Assembly (NCBI GenBank): GCA_903893445.1
Contig: CAITMG010000039.1
Coordinates: 1-41,899 of the forward strand
Direction: 5' to 3'
DNA length: 41,899 nucleotides
Source: Candidatus Uhrbacteria bacterium
GTDB taxonomy: Bacteria > Patescibacteriota > Patescibacteriia > 2-12-FULL-60-25
Each line of letters begins with the position of its first letter. Position 1 is the stretch's first letter. Of this stretch, positions 10,886 through 33,690 are shown in pieces. Below the pieces are notes generated by a model that saw only the letters and a program-made list of their open reading frames with translations, was not told where the DNA came from and did no database searches. Position numbers and translations under genes: made by a program.

Positions 10886-13036
10886 ATGCGCGTTCGATTG
10901 AAAGTTGGAATTTATACGATCTTAACAACGCTTGTGGCCGTCGCGACGTTGTATTTGACGTTATCGTATGCGCTTCAATCTCAGTTTGCGCAATTAGAAA
11001 ATTTTACGTCACGACGCGATGCCGGTCGTGCGGTTGAGGGGATTGCGACGGAACAGGATCGGTTAGCAGAAATCACCCTCGATTACGCGGCTTGGGATGA
11101 TTCCTACAATTTTGTCGCACATCCATCGCAGGAATTTATTGACAGCAACTTTACAAATTCGACATTGAAATTTGATGTCATCTTGTATGTTGATACGACG
11201 GGAACATTGGTGTATTCCTCTGTGTCGAATACTGAGACGCGAAAAGATTTTTCCCTTCCGGGAGTCTTTATGTCCGGTCTGCGATCAGTGAATTCCCCGT
11301 ATCATTTTACCGATGCGACAAAAAGCTTAAAGGGCGTCTTGATGACATCGCAGGGTCCATTGATTTTTGCGGCACTGCCAATTACGACGAGTGATCAAAA
11401 AAGCGATATTCGTGGAACGATCTTGATGGGGAAGATTTTAACCGGATCTGAATTAGAAAAAGTTTCGAATGCCGTTAAAATTCCGTTGACTGTTGTCGCG
11501 CTGGATAGCGCAGAGGCTGGTCAGCTTCCAGCGGATTGGAAAACAGGCAAGATGCCTGCAGATACGATTTTTGAATCTCCGGTGAGCGAGGATCGCATGC
11601 AGGTATATGCGCTTGTTGATGATATTTATGGTCATCCAGCGTTCGCACTTCGATCAGATCTCCCACGATTAACAAACATTGAGGGCCGACGTGGGTTGGA
11701 GTATCTCTTGTTTGCTCTTGTGGCGATGTCGTTTGTCTTCGGAGCGTTTTCCCTTGTTTCCATTGAACGCGTGATCGTTCATCCGATTCAACGCTTTTCT
11801 GATCTCGTTCATGAGATGGAGCGATCGCACGTGATTCCGGATGAAGCGTTGATTCGTGGGAATGACGAGATTACGGAACTCGCACATACGTTTATGCGCG
11901 CATTTGGTGCGTTGGAGTTGTCGGAAAATCGATTACGAACTGACCGCGAGCGTCTCGATGCGATATTGCAGAGCATTGGTGAAGGCGTTGTGGTTGTTGG
12001 GAAGGATCAGAACATCGTTCTTGAAAATCGCATGGCCGAACGATTATCTGGATACGCATATTCCGATATCGTCGGAAAGCCATATCGAAAATTTTTCCTG
12101 TTTTACAATGAACGGGATCACGCCGAGGAGGTTGATGTGATCGGTCAGGTGTTGCGCGATGGGACAAATACCGGTGCCGCTGTGCCGATTGTGTATTCCC
12201 GCAAAGATGGAATGACGATTCCGGTGGCATGCGTTTCCGCGGCGTTGCGTGATGTTTCTGGTCACTTGATTGGAAGCGTGATCGTTTTTCGCGATGTGAC
12301 AAAAGAGCGCGAAGTTGATCGTATGAAGTCCGAACTTGTTTCTATCGCGTCGCATCAGTTGCGCACGCCACTTACAGGCATTAAGTGGGTGTTGGAATTA
12401 TTGATGAGTGGTCAGTCGGGAAAATTAACACGCGATCAACGAGATCAGCTTGAGCATGTCGCAGAAAGCAATGAACGCATGATTGCGTTGGTTGAGGATT
12501 TATTGAACGTGTCGCATATCGAAACCGGTCGCAAGTTTACGTATGTGTTTCAGCGTCAGGACTTTATGAAGATTGTGCACGCCGTTGTTGAGGAGCAGCA
12601 GGTGTTGGCAAAAGCGAAACAAATTTCATTAACGATTTCGCGTGGTTCCCCGCGTGTGTGCGTCTCGTATGTTGATGCGGATAAAATTCGTGAGGCGATC
12701 ACTAATCTTGTGAGCAACGCCGTGAAGTACACGCCAAAGAACGGTCATGTCGTTGTTTCTGTGGAACAGAGTAATGAAGGGGAGACATTGTTCCATGTGA
12801 AAGATTCCGGCATTGGTATTCCCGTTGATCAACAAAAGAGGGTTTTTGAGCGCTTTTTTCGAGCGGATAATGCTCAGATGCAAGAGGTGAATGGAACGGG
12901 TTTGGGGTTGTATATCGCCAAAGCGATTGTTGAGGGACATCACGGACGCATTTGGTTTGAGTCTATTGAGCATAAGGGTTCAACGTTCACATTTCTCTTG
13001 CCTGAACGCCATCCGTCAAACGAGAGCAAGGTCTAA
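10886..13036 (+). CDS. Sensor histidine kinase (CHASE4-HAMP-PAS-HisKA-HATPase)
   Basis: 716 residues. Two transmembrane segments (about 9-30 and 270-292) bracket an extracytoplasmic domain containing DYAAWDDSYNFV, the CHASE4 signature. HAMP, a PAS domain (about 350-475) and the kinase core follow. The phosphoacceptor His490 is in SHQLRTPLTGIKW. The ATPase boxes are all intact: N box NLVSNAVKYTP, G1 DSGIGIP, F box FERFFRAD and G2 GTGLGLYIAK. It should autophosphorylate and pass phosphate to a response regulator, but none is encoded beside it, so it is an orphan in this window. The stimulus is unknown. A terminator follows, overlapping the next promoter. Confidence 0.93.
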   Translation: MRVRLKVGIYTILTTLVAVATLYLTLSYALQSQFAQLENFTSRRDAGRAVEGIATEQDRLAEITLDYAAWDDSYNFVAHPSQEFIDSNFTNSTLKFDVILYVDTTGTLVYSSVSNTETRKDFSLPGVFMSGLRSVNSPYHFTDATKSLKGVLMTSQGPLIFAALPITTSDQKSDIRGTILMGKILTGSELEKVSNAVKIPLTVVALDSAEAGQLPADWKTGKMPADTIFESPVSEDRMQVYALVDDIYGHPAFALRSDLPRLTNIEGRRGLEYLLFALVAMSFVFGAFSLVSIERVIVHPIQRFSDLVHEMERSHVIPDEALIRGNDEITELAHTFMRAFGALELSENRLRTDRERLDAILQSIGEGVVVVGKDQNIVLENRMAERLSGYAYSDIVGKPYRKFFLFYNERDHAEEVDVIGQVLRDGTNTGAAVPIVYSRKDGMTIPVACVSAALRDVSGHLIGSVIVFRDVTKEREVDRMKSELVSIASHQLRTPLTGIKWVLELLMSGQSGKLTRDQRDQLEHVAESNERMIALVEDLLNVSHIETGRKFTYVFQRQDFMKIVHAVVEEQQVLAKAKQISLTISRGSPRVCVSYVDADKIREAITNLVSNAVKYTPKNGHVVVSVEQSNEGETLFHVKDSGIGIPVDQQKRVFERFFRADNAQMQEVNGTGLGLYIAKAIVEGHHGRIWFESIEHKGSTFTFLLPERHPSNESKV

Positions 13037-29791: not shown

Positions 29792-29866
29792 GGGGGTAGG
29801 GTAGCATGATTGCCTTTTTCTCGGCGTTTGCTAGGCTTTAGGTATCATTTATTCACCTTTTTGTCT

Positions 29867-30616
29867 ATGTATCTGACACTTATCTTCGTGGTCGTGTTTA
29901 TTTTGTTGATCAGTCTCCGACAGGTTGATCAATATGAACGCGGCGTTAAATTTACGATGGGTCGATTCTCCGGGTTGGTGAATCCAGGTTGGCGTGTGGT
30001 GTTGCCGATTTTTCAGTCCATGCGAAAAGTGGATCTTCGATTAAAGGCCGTTGATGTGCCAGCGCAGGATGCAATTACAAAAGATAACGTGTCTGCCAAA
30101 ATCAACGCCGTGATTTATTACAAGATCGTTGATGCCGGTAAGGCGATCATCGAAGTAGAAAATGTGAACTACGCGATTTTGCAACTTGCACAAACAACGA
30201 TGCGCAATATCGTTGGTGAGGTCACGCTCGATGAGCTGTTGAGTCAGCGACAGGTGATCTCGGATAAGATTGAAAAAATTGTGGATGAAGCAACGCTCTC
30301 GTGGGGCGTGGAAGTGACTGCCGCGGAATTGAAGGATATTAACTTGCCGCCAGACATGGTGCGCACGATTGGAAAACAGGCGGAAGCTGAACGTGAACGC
30401 CGCGCCGTTATTATTACATCGGAAGGTGAAGTTGCCGCCGCGCAAAATCTTGCGCAAGCCGCATCCATTTTATCTGCCGCACCAGGCGCGTTGCATTTGC
30501 GCACATTGAATTCGATCAATGATATTTCGTCCGATCAATCTAACACCGTCGTGTTTACATTGCCGCTCGAAGTGTTGAGTGCGTTTGCCGGGTACAGCAA
30601 GAATGTGAATAAATAA
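29867..30616 (+). CDS. SPFH/stomatin (slipin) family membrane protein
   Basis: 249 residues from the ATG at 29867; an in-frame ATG at 29810 lies before the likely -10 (TATCAT, 29843-29848). One N-terminal transmembrane segment (about 2-18), then the band-7 domain: QVDQYERGVKFTMGRFSGLVNPGWRVVLPIFQ, VDVPAQDAITKDNVSAKINAVIYYKI and the helix AEAERERRAVIITSEGEVAAAQNLAQAA. These proteins form membrane-associated ring-like oligomers. The frequent partner NfeD is not adjacent. A hairpin after the stop serves mainly the opposing gene. Confidence 0.92.
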   Translation: MYLTLIFVVVFILLISLRQVDQYERGVKFTMGRFSGLVNPGWRVVLPIFQSMRKVDLRLKAVDVPAQDAITKDNVSAKINAVIYYKIVDAGKAIIEVENVNYAILQLAQTTMRNIVGEVTLDELLSQRQVISDKIEKIVDEATLSWGVEVTAAELKDINLPPDMVRTIGKQAEAERERRAVIITSEGEVAAAQNLAQAASILSAAPGALHLRTLNSINDISSDQSNTVVFTLPLEVLSAFAGYSKNVNK

Positions 30617-30642
30617 AAAAAAGACCCCGAGGAGATCGGGGT
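30612..30642 (-). terminator. Terminator of the degenerate GHKL gene
   Basis: ACCCCGA (30624-30630) pairs with TCGGGGT (30636-30642) around GGAGA. On the minus strand the stem is followed by C and then a run of eight T, so it terminates the leftward gene ending at 30649. Confidence 0.75.
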
Positions 30643-30648
30643 GGGGAG

Positions 30649-31158
30649 CTAGTGATCATCTCGGGCACGTTTGCCCGAGATGTTTCGTTCTGCGGAAAGC
30701 AGGAGCGTCGTGATGTAGTGACCGGTCGTTCGTCGAATGACGAGATCGCCTTCGTGATCGATCACCGCCTGCATGACGGCGTTCATGATGCTTTCGGAAT
30801 CTTCGATCGTTGCTCGTCGATCGAGTGCCGTGACATCCGTCCCCGTGTCGGAGATCTCGAGGAACGTGTATGTCCCTGGGCGTTTGATGCCCGGGAAGAA
30901 GCGGATTCCCGTTCGCACGCTGATGGTGCCGGGTTGCTCGCGCAGACAGCGAAGGCTGTAGCCGAGCAGTGCCGTTGTCGCGCGTTCGATGGTGTCGCTG
31001 TGTCCACGGAATAACGGGAGTGTGGTGCACGGTGGCGATTCGATGACGGCATGGTCGCCGACGTACGTGCGAAAGCAGCTGACGGTTTTCCTGATGAGAT
31101 CGTTGAGATCAAAGGTGCGGGGTGCGATCAGGGGTTTACGACCGCGAGCGCTGCTCAT
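30649..31158 (-). CDS. Degenerate GHKL (histidine-kinase-type) ATPase-domain protein
   Basis: 169 residues from the ATG at 31158, set by GGAGG eight bases upstream; a longer frame to 31284 is rejected. The sequence tracks a histidine-kinase ATPase domain from end to end: FDLNDLIRKTVSCFRTYVGDHAVIES, a segment at the N-box position (TIERATTALLGYSLRCL), TISVRTG..., YTFLEISDTGTDV at the G1 box, and a final VIDHEGDLVIRRTTGHYITTLLLSAE that aligns with the last strands of the fold. The N-box Asn, the second Gly of DxGxG and the GxGL box are missing, and there is no phosphoacceptor His domain. ATP binding is therefore doubtful. Codon use is GC-rich and proteobacteria-like. It is divergent from the 31311 gene. 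Confidence 0.7.
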   Translation of the reverse strand: MSSARGRKPLIAPRTFDLNDLIRKTVSCFRTYVGDHAVIESPPCTTLPLFRGHSDTIERATTALLGYSLRCLREQPGTISVRTGIRFFPGIKRPGTYTFLEISDTGTDVTALDRRATIEDSESIMNAVMQAVIDHEGDLVIRRTTGHYITTLLLSAERNISGKRARDDH

Positions 31159-31213
31159 CGTGAGCCTCCAAAAAGATGTTTCATTTTCCCCCAATGTGAT
31201 AACGAACAACGAA

Positions 31214-31222
31214 AGTATAGCA
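31214..31222 (-). promoter_or_regulatory. Extended -10 element of the GHKL-like gene
   Basis: TGCTATACT on the minus strand (31222-31214), giving a leader of about 50 bases with GGAGG before the ATG at 31158. Confidence 0.6.
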
Positions 31223-31236
31223 GGTGATGAAGGTGA

Positions 31237-31265
31237 TTGACAGAAGTGAGAATGAATGATATTAA
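31237..31265 (+). promoter_or_regulatory. Consensus promoter of the 31311 gene
   Basis: TTGACA (31237-31242), exactly 17 bp, TATTAA (31260-31265). It is back to back with the minus-strand -10 at 31214-31222. The SD GGAGGAG (31300-31306) precedes the ATG at 31311. Confidence 0.75.
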
Positions 31266-31310: not shown

Positions 31311-31769
31311 ATGCTTCGATATCTGTGTCAGAACCCCAAGGGCGGCGCCATCCATCTGATGGTGTCGCAGAAGAACGTGGAGCACATCGCTCAATTCTCC
31401 TTTTGTGGATCCAACGTGACCCGCGGCGGCAACATCACACGCTTTGCTTCTCTCAACGATCTGCTGAATGACGCGATCGTTCGTCGTCAGCTCGGGCAGA
31501 TCGTGAGCGACCGGATCGAGCGCCTGAGCGACCCAACGGGGGCCGCAACCTGCACCTTCGCGTATCCCACTTTTCTGGGGTGGGACTGTACCAATCACAA
31601 CGAGCGAACGCGCACGCTGACGGTCGACGTGGTCATCGAGCCGCATCGGAATCGGTCGGACGTGCTCGTCGTTCATCTACGGAATCTCTACGCTGGCGCA
31701 CCAGCCGAGCCCACGCTCCTCGCCCTGTTTGGGTGGGCCATGGAGCCAGAGCTCGCAACGGGCACATAG
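31311..31769 (+). CDS. Unknown protein, divergent partner of the GHKL-like gene
   Basis: 152 residues. The ATG at 31311 follows GGAGGAG with four bases of spacing. No signal peptide or membrane helix. It has three or four beta-rich stretches (IAQFSFCGSNVTRGGNITRF, TFAYPTFLGWDCTNH, TRTLTVDVVIEPHRNRSDVLVVHLRNL) and Cys at about residues 6, 32, 81 and 92. GC-rich codons, consensus promoter, SD and own terminator match its divergent neighbour, so the two probably arrived together. No family recognised. Confidence 0.7.
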   Translation: MLRYLCQNPKGGAIHLMVSQKNVEHIAQFSFCGSNVTRGGNITRFASLNDLLNDAIVRRQLGQIVSDRIERLSDPTGAATCTFAYPTFLGWDCTNHNERTRTLTVDVVIEPHRNRSDVLVVHLRNLYAGAPAEPTLLALFGWAMEPELATGT

Positions 31770-32239: not shown

Positions 32240-33574
32240 TTACCGCTGATCCGCGACAGATTTGAGATAGGTGAATGATGACGCGCTTCCGTTAAACCAG
32301 TATCGTTGCAACGTGTCTGGATGGATGTACCAGATTTTTGATTTGTCGGATTTTGTCACGAGAATTTTTCCGGCAAACGAACGGCGGAGATCGATATTTT
32401 GTTGTTTCTCTTGTCCGGGTTGTGGGATCTGTCTGAGTGTGGCATCTGTGACCGTCGTGGCGAGTCCTTTGAGGGCATTGAATGCCCATCGTGATTCCCA
32501 CATACGCAATGTTTGTTGCGTCGTTGGATCGGTGTAGGTCAAGATGTTTTGATTTGTGTTGAGAATGAGCCGTCCGGATGCATATTGAAGCGCTGTTTCT
32601 GCCGATGGTGCGCTTTGTGATGTTGCATCATTTGGTGATCTTGTGAGGATGAGGTTTGGGATCGGACTTGTTTGAAAAGTGGTGTCTTGTGGCGATTGGG
32701 TTTGTGTTGCGGGTTGATTTCCTGCGGTCACGATCGCACTGGCAATGAGATGTACATTGTCTACGACGGAGTTGGCGATGTAGTCACCAATGTCATCAGA
32801 GTGAATGGTGACAGATGCTTGGCCGTCTTGATTTGTCGTTCGCGTGTAGTGTGTGGCGGTTTGAAGGTTTTTTGACACCAAGATGACGACATCTTTGCTT
32901 GTGACCGGTGCGTTATTTGCATCTTTTAACGTCAACGTAAAAATAATATCTGATCCTGCGGTGCTGAGTTGCGGCTGTGCGGTGAGTGATGACGTGTTTT
33001 GTGAGACCGTCGTCGGAGTCGCTGGTGTCGTCGTTGTTGCAGCTGGTGGTACGACTTGTATGACAGGTGGCGTTACTGGTGTTGATGATGGTGTTGTGTT
33101 GAATGGGACGCTGGACTGTCCGTTGGATCTGCCACCGGTCACAACGGCACTGGCGATAAAATGCGCGCTGTCTGCGACGGTATTTGCAATATAGTCACCA
33201 ACTTCATCGGAAAGAATTGTGACGGTCGCCTGGCCATTTTGATCCGTTGTGCGTGCGTAGTGAACCGCGGTTTGGAGATTTTTTGAAACAAGAATGTCCA
33301 CGTTTTTCGCCATTACGGGATTCCCGGCGCCATCTTTCAATGTGAGGAGAAATGTAAACGATGTTCCGACGTTTGAAAGGTTTGGTTGTGCAATGAAGGA
33401 AGAATTTTGTTGTGAGACAGAGATGGCCGCGGCGCTCATTTCCATCAAGGATATTTTTTGAAGGGGAATGACTTGCAGGGATTGTGCATGCAAAACAGCG
33501 AACGGCTGCAACAAAAGGGGAAGTGCGGTTGCGGCTGAAATAAGGGAGCGTCGCGTGTTTTTTGAAAATGTCAT
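32240..33574 (-). CDS. Secreted surface protein with two tandem Ig-like domains
   Basis: 444 residues from the ATG at 33574, chosen because TGGTATACT lies just upstream and the protein then starts with a signal peptide ending AVLHA-Q. Two closely similar domains of about 100 residues (around 52-160 and 190-300) share long identical stretches such as TLKDA/G..., VILVSKNLQTA.HY.RTT.Q.GQA.VTI.SD..GDYIAN, an invasin/Big-1-like Ig pattern. They are joined by Pro/Thr linkers. The C-terminus has SKIWYIHPDTLQRYWFNG, the W-Y-x-x-P module often found at the ends of Patescibacteria surface proteins. The near-identity of the two domains suggests internal duplication. Confidence 0.8.
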   Translation of the reverse strand: MTFSKNTRRSLISAATALPLLLQPFAVLHAQSLQVIPLQKISLMEMSAAAISVSQQNSSFIAQPNLSNVGTSFTFLLTLKDGAGNPVMAKNVDILVSKNLQTAVHYARTTDQNGQATVTILSDEVGDYIANTVADSAHFIASAVVTGGRSNGQSSVPFNTTPSSTPVTPPVIQVVPPAATTTTPATPTTVSQNTSSLTAQPQLSTAGSDIIFTLTLKDANNAPVTSKDVVILVSKNLQTATHYTRTTNQDGQASVTIHSDDIGDYIANSVVDNVHLIASAIVTAGNQPATQTQSPQDTTFQTSPIPNLILTRSPNDATSQSAPSAETALQYASGRLILNTNQNILTYTDPTTQQTLRMWESRWAFNALKGLATTVTDATLRQIPQPGQEKQQNIDLRRSFAGKILVTKSDKSKIWYIHPDTLQRYWFNGSASSFTYLKSVADQR

Positions 33575-33596
33575 ATTGGTATTTTGGATTGGCAAA

Positions 33597-33605
33597 AGTA
33601 TACCA
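33597..33605 (-). promoter_or_regulatory. Extended -10 element (TGGTATACT)
   Basis: TGGTATACT on the minus strand, 22 bases before the ATG at 33574. It is identical to the element at 9645-9653, which drives another Ig-like protein at nearly the same distance. Confidence 0.6.
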
Positions 33606-33690
33606 AATTTTTGTGTTTTTCGTGCGATGCCCGCACCCATTGAAATTCTTTTGCCGTTTTGATACGCTTCCCGGCGTCAAGAAAAACTAT

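Follow-up and report, generated by a model that had tools for sequence, protein, structure and literature searches.

Gene organization at the locus

The analysed stretch of DNA, here called the window, comprises 41,899 nucleotides from a Candidatus Uhrbacteria genome. On its minus strand, an open reading frame at positions 30649 to 31158 specifies a protein of 169 amino acids, designated P0001; its coordinates, as given in a preliminary description made from the DNA letters, were confirmed. The ATG start codon is located at 31158 and the stop codon at 30651-30649. A ribosome-binding site, GGAGG, precedes the ATG by about 7 bases (31166..31170, minus strand), and a promoter-like site, CTGTCA-18-TATACT with a TG preceding the -10 element, is situated upstream (31214..31243, minus strand). 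The stop codon is followed by an intrinsic-terminator-like hairpin, ACCCCGATCTCCTCGGGGT, with a T run (30624..30642, minus strand). Among the six frames, the minus-strand frame of P0001 has the highest codon score (0.216), which is lower than the 0.38-0.41 obtained for two typical genes of the window. The reading frame is probably a genuine, self-contained gene.

P0001 lies between a gene for a band-7 protein (29810-30616) and a divergent gene of no known family (31311-31769). The band-7 gene was found in 33 of 41 relatives, and at the 19 loci of relatives that were checked no P0001-like reading frame is present next to it. No partner is encoded adjacent to P0001. The divergent gene on the plus strand specifies 152 amino acids without a match in the libraries and has a GC content of 0.74 at third codon positions; a weak relative (L012, 1372-2085; 27%, E 3e-5) is encoded in a second genome of the family, and the two may represent a small unknown family. 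Also in the window, a minus-strand gene at 32240-33640 encodes a protein of 466 amino acids with two matches to bacterial Ig-like domains (Big_1), probably a surface protein.

Similarity to ATPase domains of hybrid histidine kinases

Standard searches did not assign P0001 to a family. Pfam and NCBIfam gave no match up to E 10, P0001 was absent from the matches when its own genome was searched with HATPase_c (PF02518), and the ChpT-type model PF10090 did not match it. The search of PDB sequences yielded no usable match and no kinase among the matches, PADLOC gave nothing useful, and the single weak match in PHROGs (E 0.099) is unannotated. With a profile of 31 HATPase-containing sequences of the Patescibacteria type, drawn mostly from kinases of the host genome and its relatives, P0001 scored no better than shuffled sequences. 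The lack of library and PDB kinase matches and the failure of this profile would fit an unrelated orphan protein, the likeness of which to HATPase domains is accidental.

A different picture emerged from a tblastn search against plasmids. Borderline matches (E 1-10) were obtained in the same register, more than half of them to PAS or hybrid kinases of alphaproteobacteria. A first profile, which included these plasmid matches and is thus partly circular, gave P0001 16.2 bits. Two further profiles were assembled without P0001, leaving a small selection effect, since the kinase class had been prompted by P0001's own matches, a Novosphingobium kinase included. With 12 domains, fetched with the Novosphingobium kinase, P0001 reached 13.4 bits compared to 4.3 bits for the best of 3,000 shuffles. 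With 83 domains from contigs of a viral collection, located by a DNA motif and its relatives, the values were 12.9 bits and, for the best of 10,000 shuffles, 10.5 bits. With the 12-domain profile, P0001 was the only one of 1,172 open reading frames exceeding 5 bits outside full kinases and frames with a recognised HATPase domain, and the same was true for the 83-domain profile.

Judged by these scores, residues 7-109 (30832..31140, minus strand), an HMM alignment ending at EISDTGTD, are homologous to HATPase domains found in hybrid kinases of the CckA class, with a similarity better than chance. The failure of the Patescibacteria-type profile reflects the wrong kinase class; because that profile misses P0001, the proper comparison is with CckA-like hybrid kinases and not with kinases of the type encoded at 10886-13036 in the window. 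The preliminary description had aligned P0001 with a kinase ATPase domain from the strand before the N box through EISDTG to a final GxxTTLxLxxE strand. The first part of this alignment is upheld by the profiles. The last part is not, as the C-terminal 60 residues gave no significant profile match alone; for the C-terminal third, a likeness to HATPase domains is suggested by eye and by a model calculated on borrowed homologues. This missing significance would again be expected of an accidental resemblance. Such an explanation is nevertheless improbable, since with the hybrid-kinase profiles P0001 outscores 10,000 shuffles as well as every open reading frame without a HATPase domain.

Conserved and lost motifs

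P0001 was compared with an alignment of 56 homologues. In place of the N box, LLNLxINARDAM, residues 62-73 read TALLGYSLRCLR (30940..30975, minus strand). The catalytic asparagine, present in 56 of 56 homologues, is Tyr67 in P0001 and had correctly been reported as replaced; in addition, Asp70 is changed to Arg and Ala71 to Cys. For the G1 box, described before as replaced altogether, a correction is needed. Residues 104-109, DTGTDV (30832..30849, minus strand), correspond to DTGTGM of the homologues: Asp104 and Gly106, invariant in all 56, are retained, and the second glycine of DxGxG is lost (Gly108 to Asp). Beyond this point, the F box (PFFTT) is replaced and GTGLGL is deleted along with the ATP lid, in agreement with the earlier claim that the GxGL box is missing. 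According to the alignment gap and the model, residues 111-134 (30757..30828, minus strand) would form one helix in the place of F box, lid, and G2 helix. The predicted last two strands, residues 138-156 with the sequence DLVIRRTTGHYITTLLLSA (30691..30747, minus strand), were recognized by eye and are not significant alone.

Across the alignment, 24 highly conserved columns consist mainly of N, D, G, T, P, F, or K, and 5 of them are kept in P0001. Conserved hydrophobic columns are still hydrophobic in 28 of 44 cases, somewhat more than in shuffled sequences (mean 22.3; 6 of 120 shuffles as high). The loss thus appears to be heavier at positions of the catalytic type, and the hydrophobic signal is modest.

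A HisKA domain is present neither in P0001 nor in its flanks, as had been noted, and no remnant of a DHp or receiver domain adjoins P0001 in any frame. The ends of the protein fall cleanly on domain edges; it starts at the CA domain and has no histidine hairpin. Lacking this hairpin as well as N box, lid, and G2 box, P0001 is not expected to act as a kinase or as a phosphotransferase. Both the lid and the residues that normally bind Mg-ATP are apparently missing, and P0001 would not be expected to bind ATP in the usual way, although the retained Asp104 and Gly106 might allow it to bind some ligand.

Structural model

A model of P0001 calculated from the single sequence was poor (pLDDT 36.6) and was left out of the fold search; its uninformative nature is another point in favour of an accidental likeness. 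When 56 homologous rows, obtained from viral contigs, were supplied, the model reached a pLDDT of 83.6 and a pTM of 0.79. Its best match among PDB folds was the CA domain of CckA (5idm, E 2e-9), followed by RetS and NtrB. The comparison of structures proposed in the preliminary description therefore yielded a GHKL fold; since the supplied alignment carries the fold, this result demonstrates compatibility with the Bergerat alpha/beta sandwich and is no independent proof. The order of secondary structures agrees with that of a HATPase domain over the full length of this homologue-based model, which argues against a fortuitous similarity, and the predicted fold of the C-terminal third derives from it. 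At the lid site, a single helix spans residues 111-134, with low confidence for the block 111-120. Taken together, the profile statistics, the CckA CA domain as best match of the model, and the loss of N, F, and G2 boxes and lid support the designation of P0001 as a stand-alone GHKL pseudo-ATPase; a stand-alone pseudo-CA domain holds with the corrections that G1 is partly lost and that the C-terminal likeness is not significant alone.

The closest fold, 5idm, was solved with c-di-GMP and AMPPNP. Together with the invariant Asp and Gly of the G1 box, this raises the question whether P0001 switched its ligand and signals by binding a nucleotide or a second messenger such as c-di-GMP, a ligand of the CckA CA domain. 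Against this stands the loss of N box, lid, and G2 box. In ChpT, the phosphotransferase of the Caulobacter CckA pathway, an extra helix substitutes the ATP lid, as may be the case in P0001, and neither nucleotide was present in crystals obtained with ATP or ADP (PMC3433190). A change of ligand is accordingly rather improbable.

Distribution and origin

Orthologs of P0001 were detected in none of 41 genomes of the family, 381 of the class, and 380 of the phylum, nor in viral contigs or phages. Relatives retaining the boxes in the same alignment had been named in the preliminary description as evidence against degeneration; no box-keeping ortholog was seen, as no ortholog was found at all. Consequently, there is no conservation backing a function of P0001. 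Three candidate relatives were rejected: in L002 the match is FRTYVGDHAV, within a long protein that has no relation to kinases; the match of L010 is weak and interrupted by two stops; and L125 contains a stop and runs antisense to a GAPDH gene.

At third codon positions, the GC content of P0001 is 0.69, compared to 0.46-0.55 in the other genes of the window except the divergent neighbour mentioned above. Such GC-rich third positions suggest a lateral origin. Strong matches to CckA-class kinases occur in 4 of the 41 family genomes, including the host genome. Two PAS hybrid kinases of this class with HATPase and receiver domains, L095 (G007) and L096 (G001), have third-position GC contents of 0.83 and 0.75, respectively, suggesting that this lineage acquires kinases of the class by lateral transfer. 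P0001 was probably derived from a CckA-class PAS hybrid kinase acquired laterally from a GC-rich bacterium. A recent duplication of the host's own CckA-class kinase (L009/L097) was rejected as the direct source, because the pairwise Z value was 1.6 versus 10-14 for alphaproteobacterial kinases, a ranking biased by the fact that the top alphaproteobacterial kinases were partly chosen using P0001.

An origin of this kind is also compatible with the main rival explanation, that P0001 is a functionless, decaying relic of a laterally acquired hybrid kinase from which the other domains have been deleted. Its occurrence in one genome, the survival of the HATPase part alone, the elevated third-position GC, and the scattered distribution of CckA-class kinases in the family, two of them foreign-looking by composition, could all be explained in this way. 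On the other hand, the frame is open over 169 codons at approximately 20% identity to the homologues; if 130 codons were replaced at random, the chance that no stop arises would be about 0.002, which speaks against long neutral decay. P0001 also has its own ribosome-binding site, promoter-like site, and terminator, its domain edges are clean without DHp or receiver remnant, and its hydrophobic core is kept somewhat above the level of shuffled sequences. A single genome is insufficient to settle relic versus function, but intact frame and expression signals oppose long neutral decay. A relic is a serious candidate, yet somewhat unlikely.

Two-component proteins and a possible function

The host genome of 1.19 Mb, presumably patescibacterial, contains seven HATPase loci and eight receivers, all of them potential targets of P0001 in the cell. 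A single CckA-class hybrid kinase is among them, encoded on contig C92. Of the eight receivers (L067-L074), seven are found in open frames of 127-164 amino acids, apparently as single-domain proteins without output domains. The kinase encoded in the window at 10886-13036 (plus strand) has the architecture CHASE4-PAS-HisKA-HATPase with intact boxes. In the preliminary description, P0001 was suggested as a possible decoy or anti-kinase that could bind a kinase or response regulator, and this kinase was pointed out as an orphan in the same genome. Orphan it is, as no response regulator adjoins it and its neighbours encode an Ig-domain protein and a glycerol-3-phosphate dehydrogenase, but it belongs to a class other than the one matched by P0001. 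For this reason, the C92 hybrid kinase would be preferred as the first candidate partner.

The reading that we favour, tentatively and with less than even confidence, is that P0001 is a small cytosolic protein consisting of a single HATPase-like CA domain, descended from the CckA class and serving to bind a partner. If P0001 has any function, the most likely one would be that of a module binding other proteins in two-component signalling. Its docking site could be the DHp helices or the receiver of a kinase or of a response regulator in the cell; bound there in the manner of the CA domain of the kinase itself, P0001 might block or bias phosphotransfer. The binding function is one that we infer entirely by analogy. 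A more speculative and rather doubtful extension is that in a minimal genome hybrid kinases or receivers would be regulated by a diffusible protein of this kind, a single CA domain that is lid-less and nucleotide-blind. If true, it would mean that a lone degenerate CA domain is re-usable by itself as a binding module. As an orphan of one genome, P0001 is at present of value as a lead; it also illustrates that degeneration can take a kinase domain beyond the reach of standard family models.

Comparison with known systems

The CA domain of CckA and related PAS-HisKA-HATPase-REC kinases is the top match of P0001 in both profile and fold comparisons. Shared features are the start after the DHp helix (LxPRxxDLNxLI) and the strand that leads up to and into the G1 box (PGxYxxLxxSDTGT). 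Unlike these domains, P0001 stands alone and lacks the N-box Asn, the second G1 Gly, F box, lid, G2 box, DHp, and receiver. To our knowledge, all known pseudo-histidine kinases retain DHp and sensor domains; DivL and others of this kind dimerise, whereas P0001 is a single domain. ChpT may resemble P0001 at the lid site, for which the model of P0001 predicts one long helix, but carries at its N terminus a helical hairpin with His33 as the phosphorylated residue, for which P0001 has no counterpart.

Precedents for action without catalysis exist among kinases and their inhibitors. Sda and KipI are small, diffusible anti-kinases proposed to bind DHp helices and thereby to block the contact between DHp and CA domains (PMC8534201). 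They are not derived from kinase domains and could not be linked to P0001 by sequence, but their action is the one proposed for P0001. DivL binds nucleotides weakly and senses DivK~P (PMC4211667), and a frameshift variant of ChrS is a pseudokinase forming heterodimers (PMC9491836). Because DivL, the ChrS pseudokinase, Sda, and KipI all act by binding a partner, partner binding is suggested for P0001 as well. DivL and the ChrS variant are, like P0001, kinase-derived, and for both of them poor or absent catalysis is known to be combined with partner binding.
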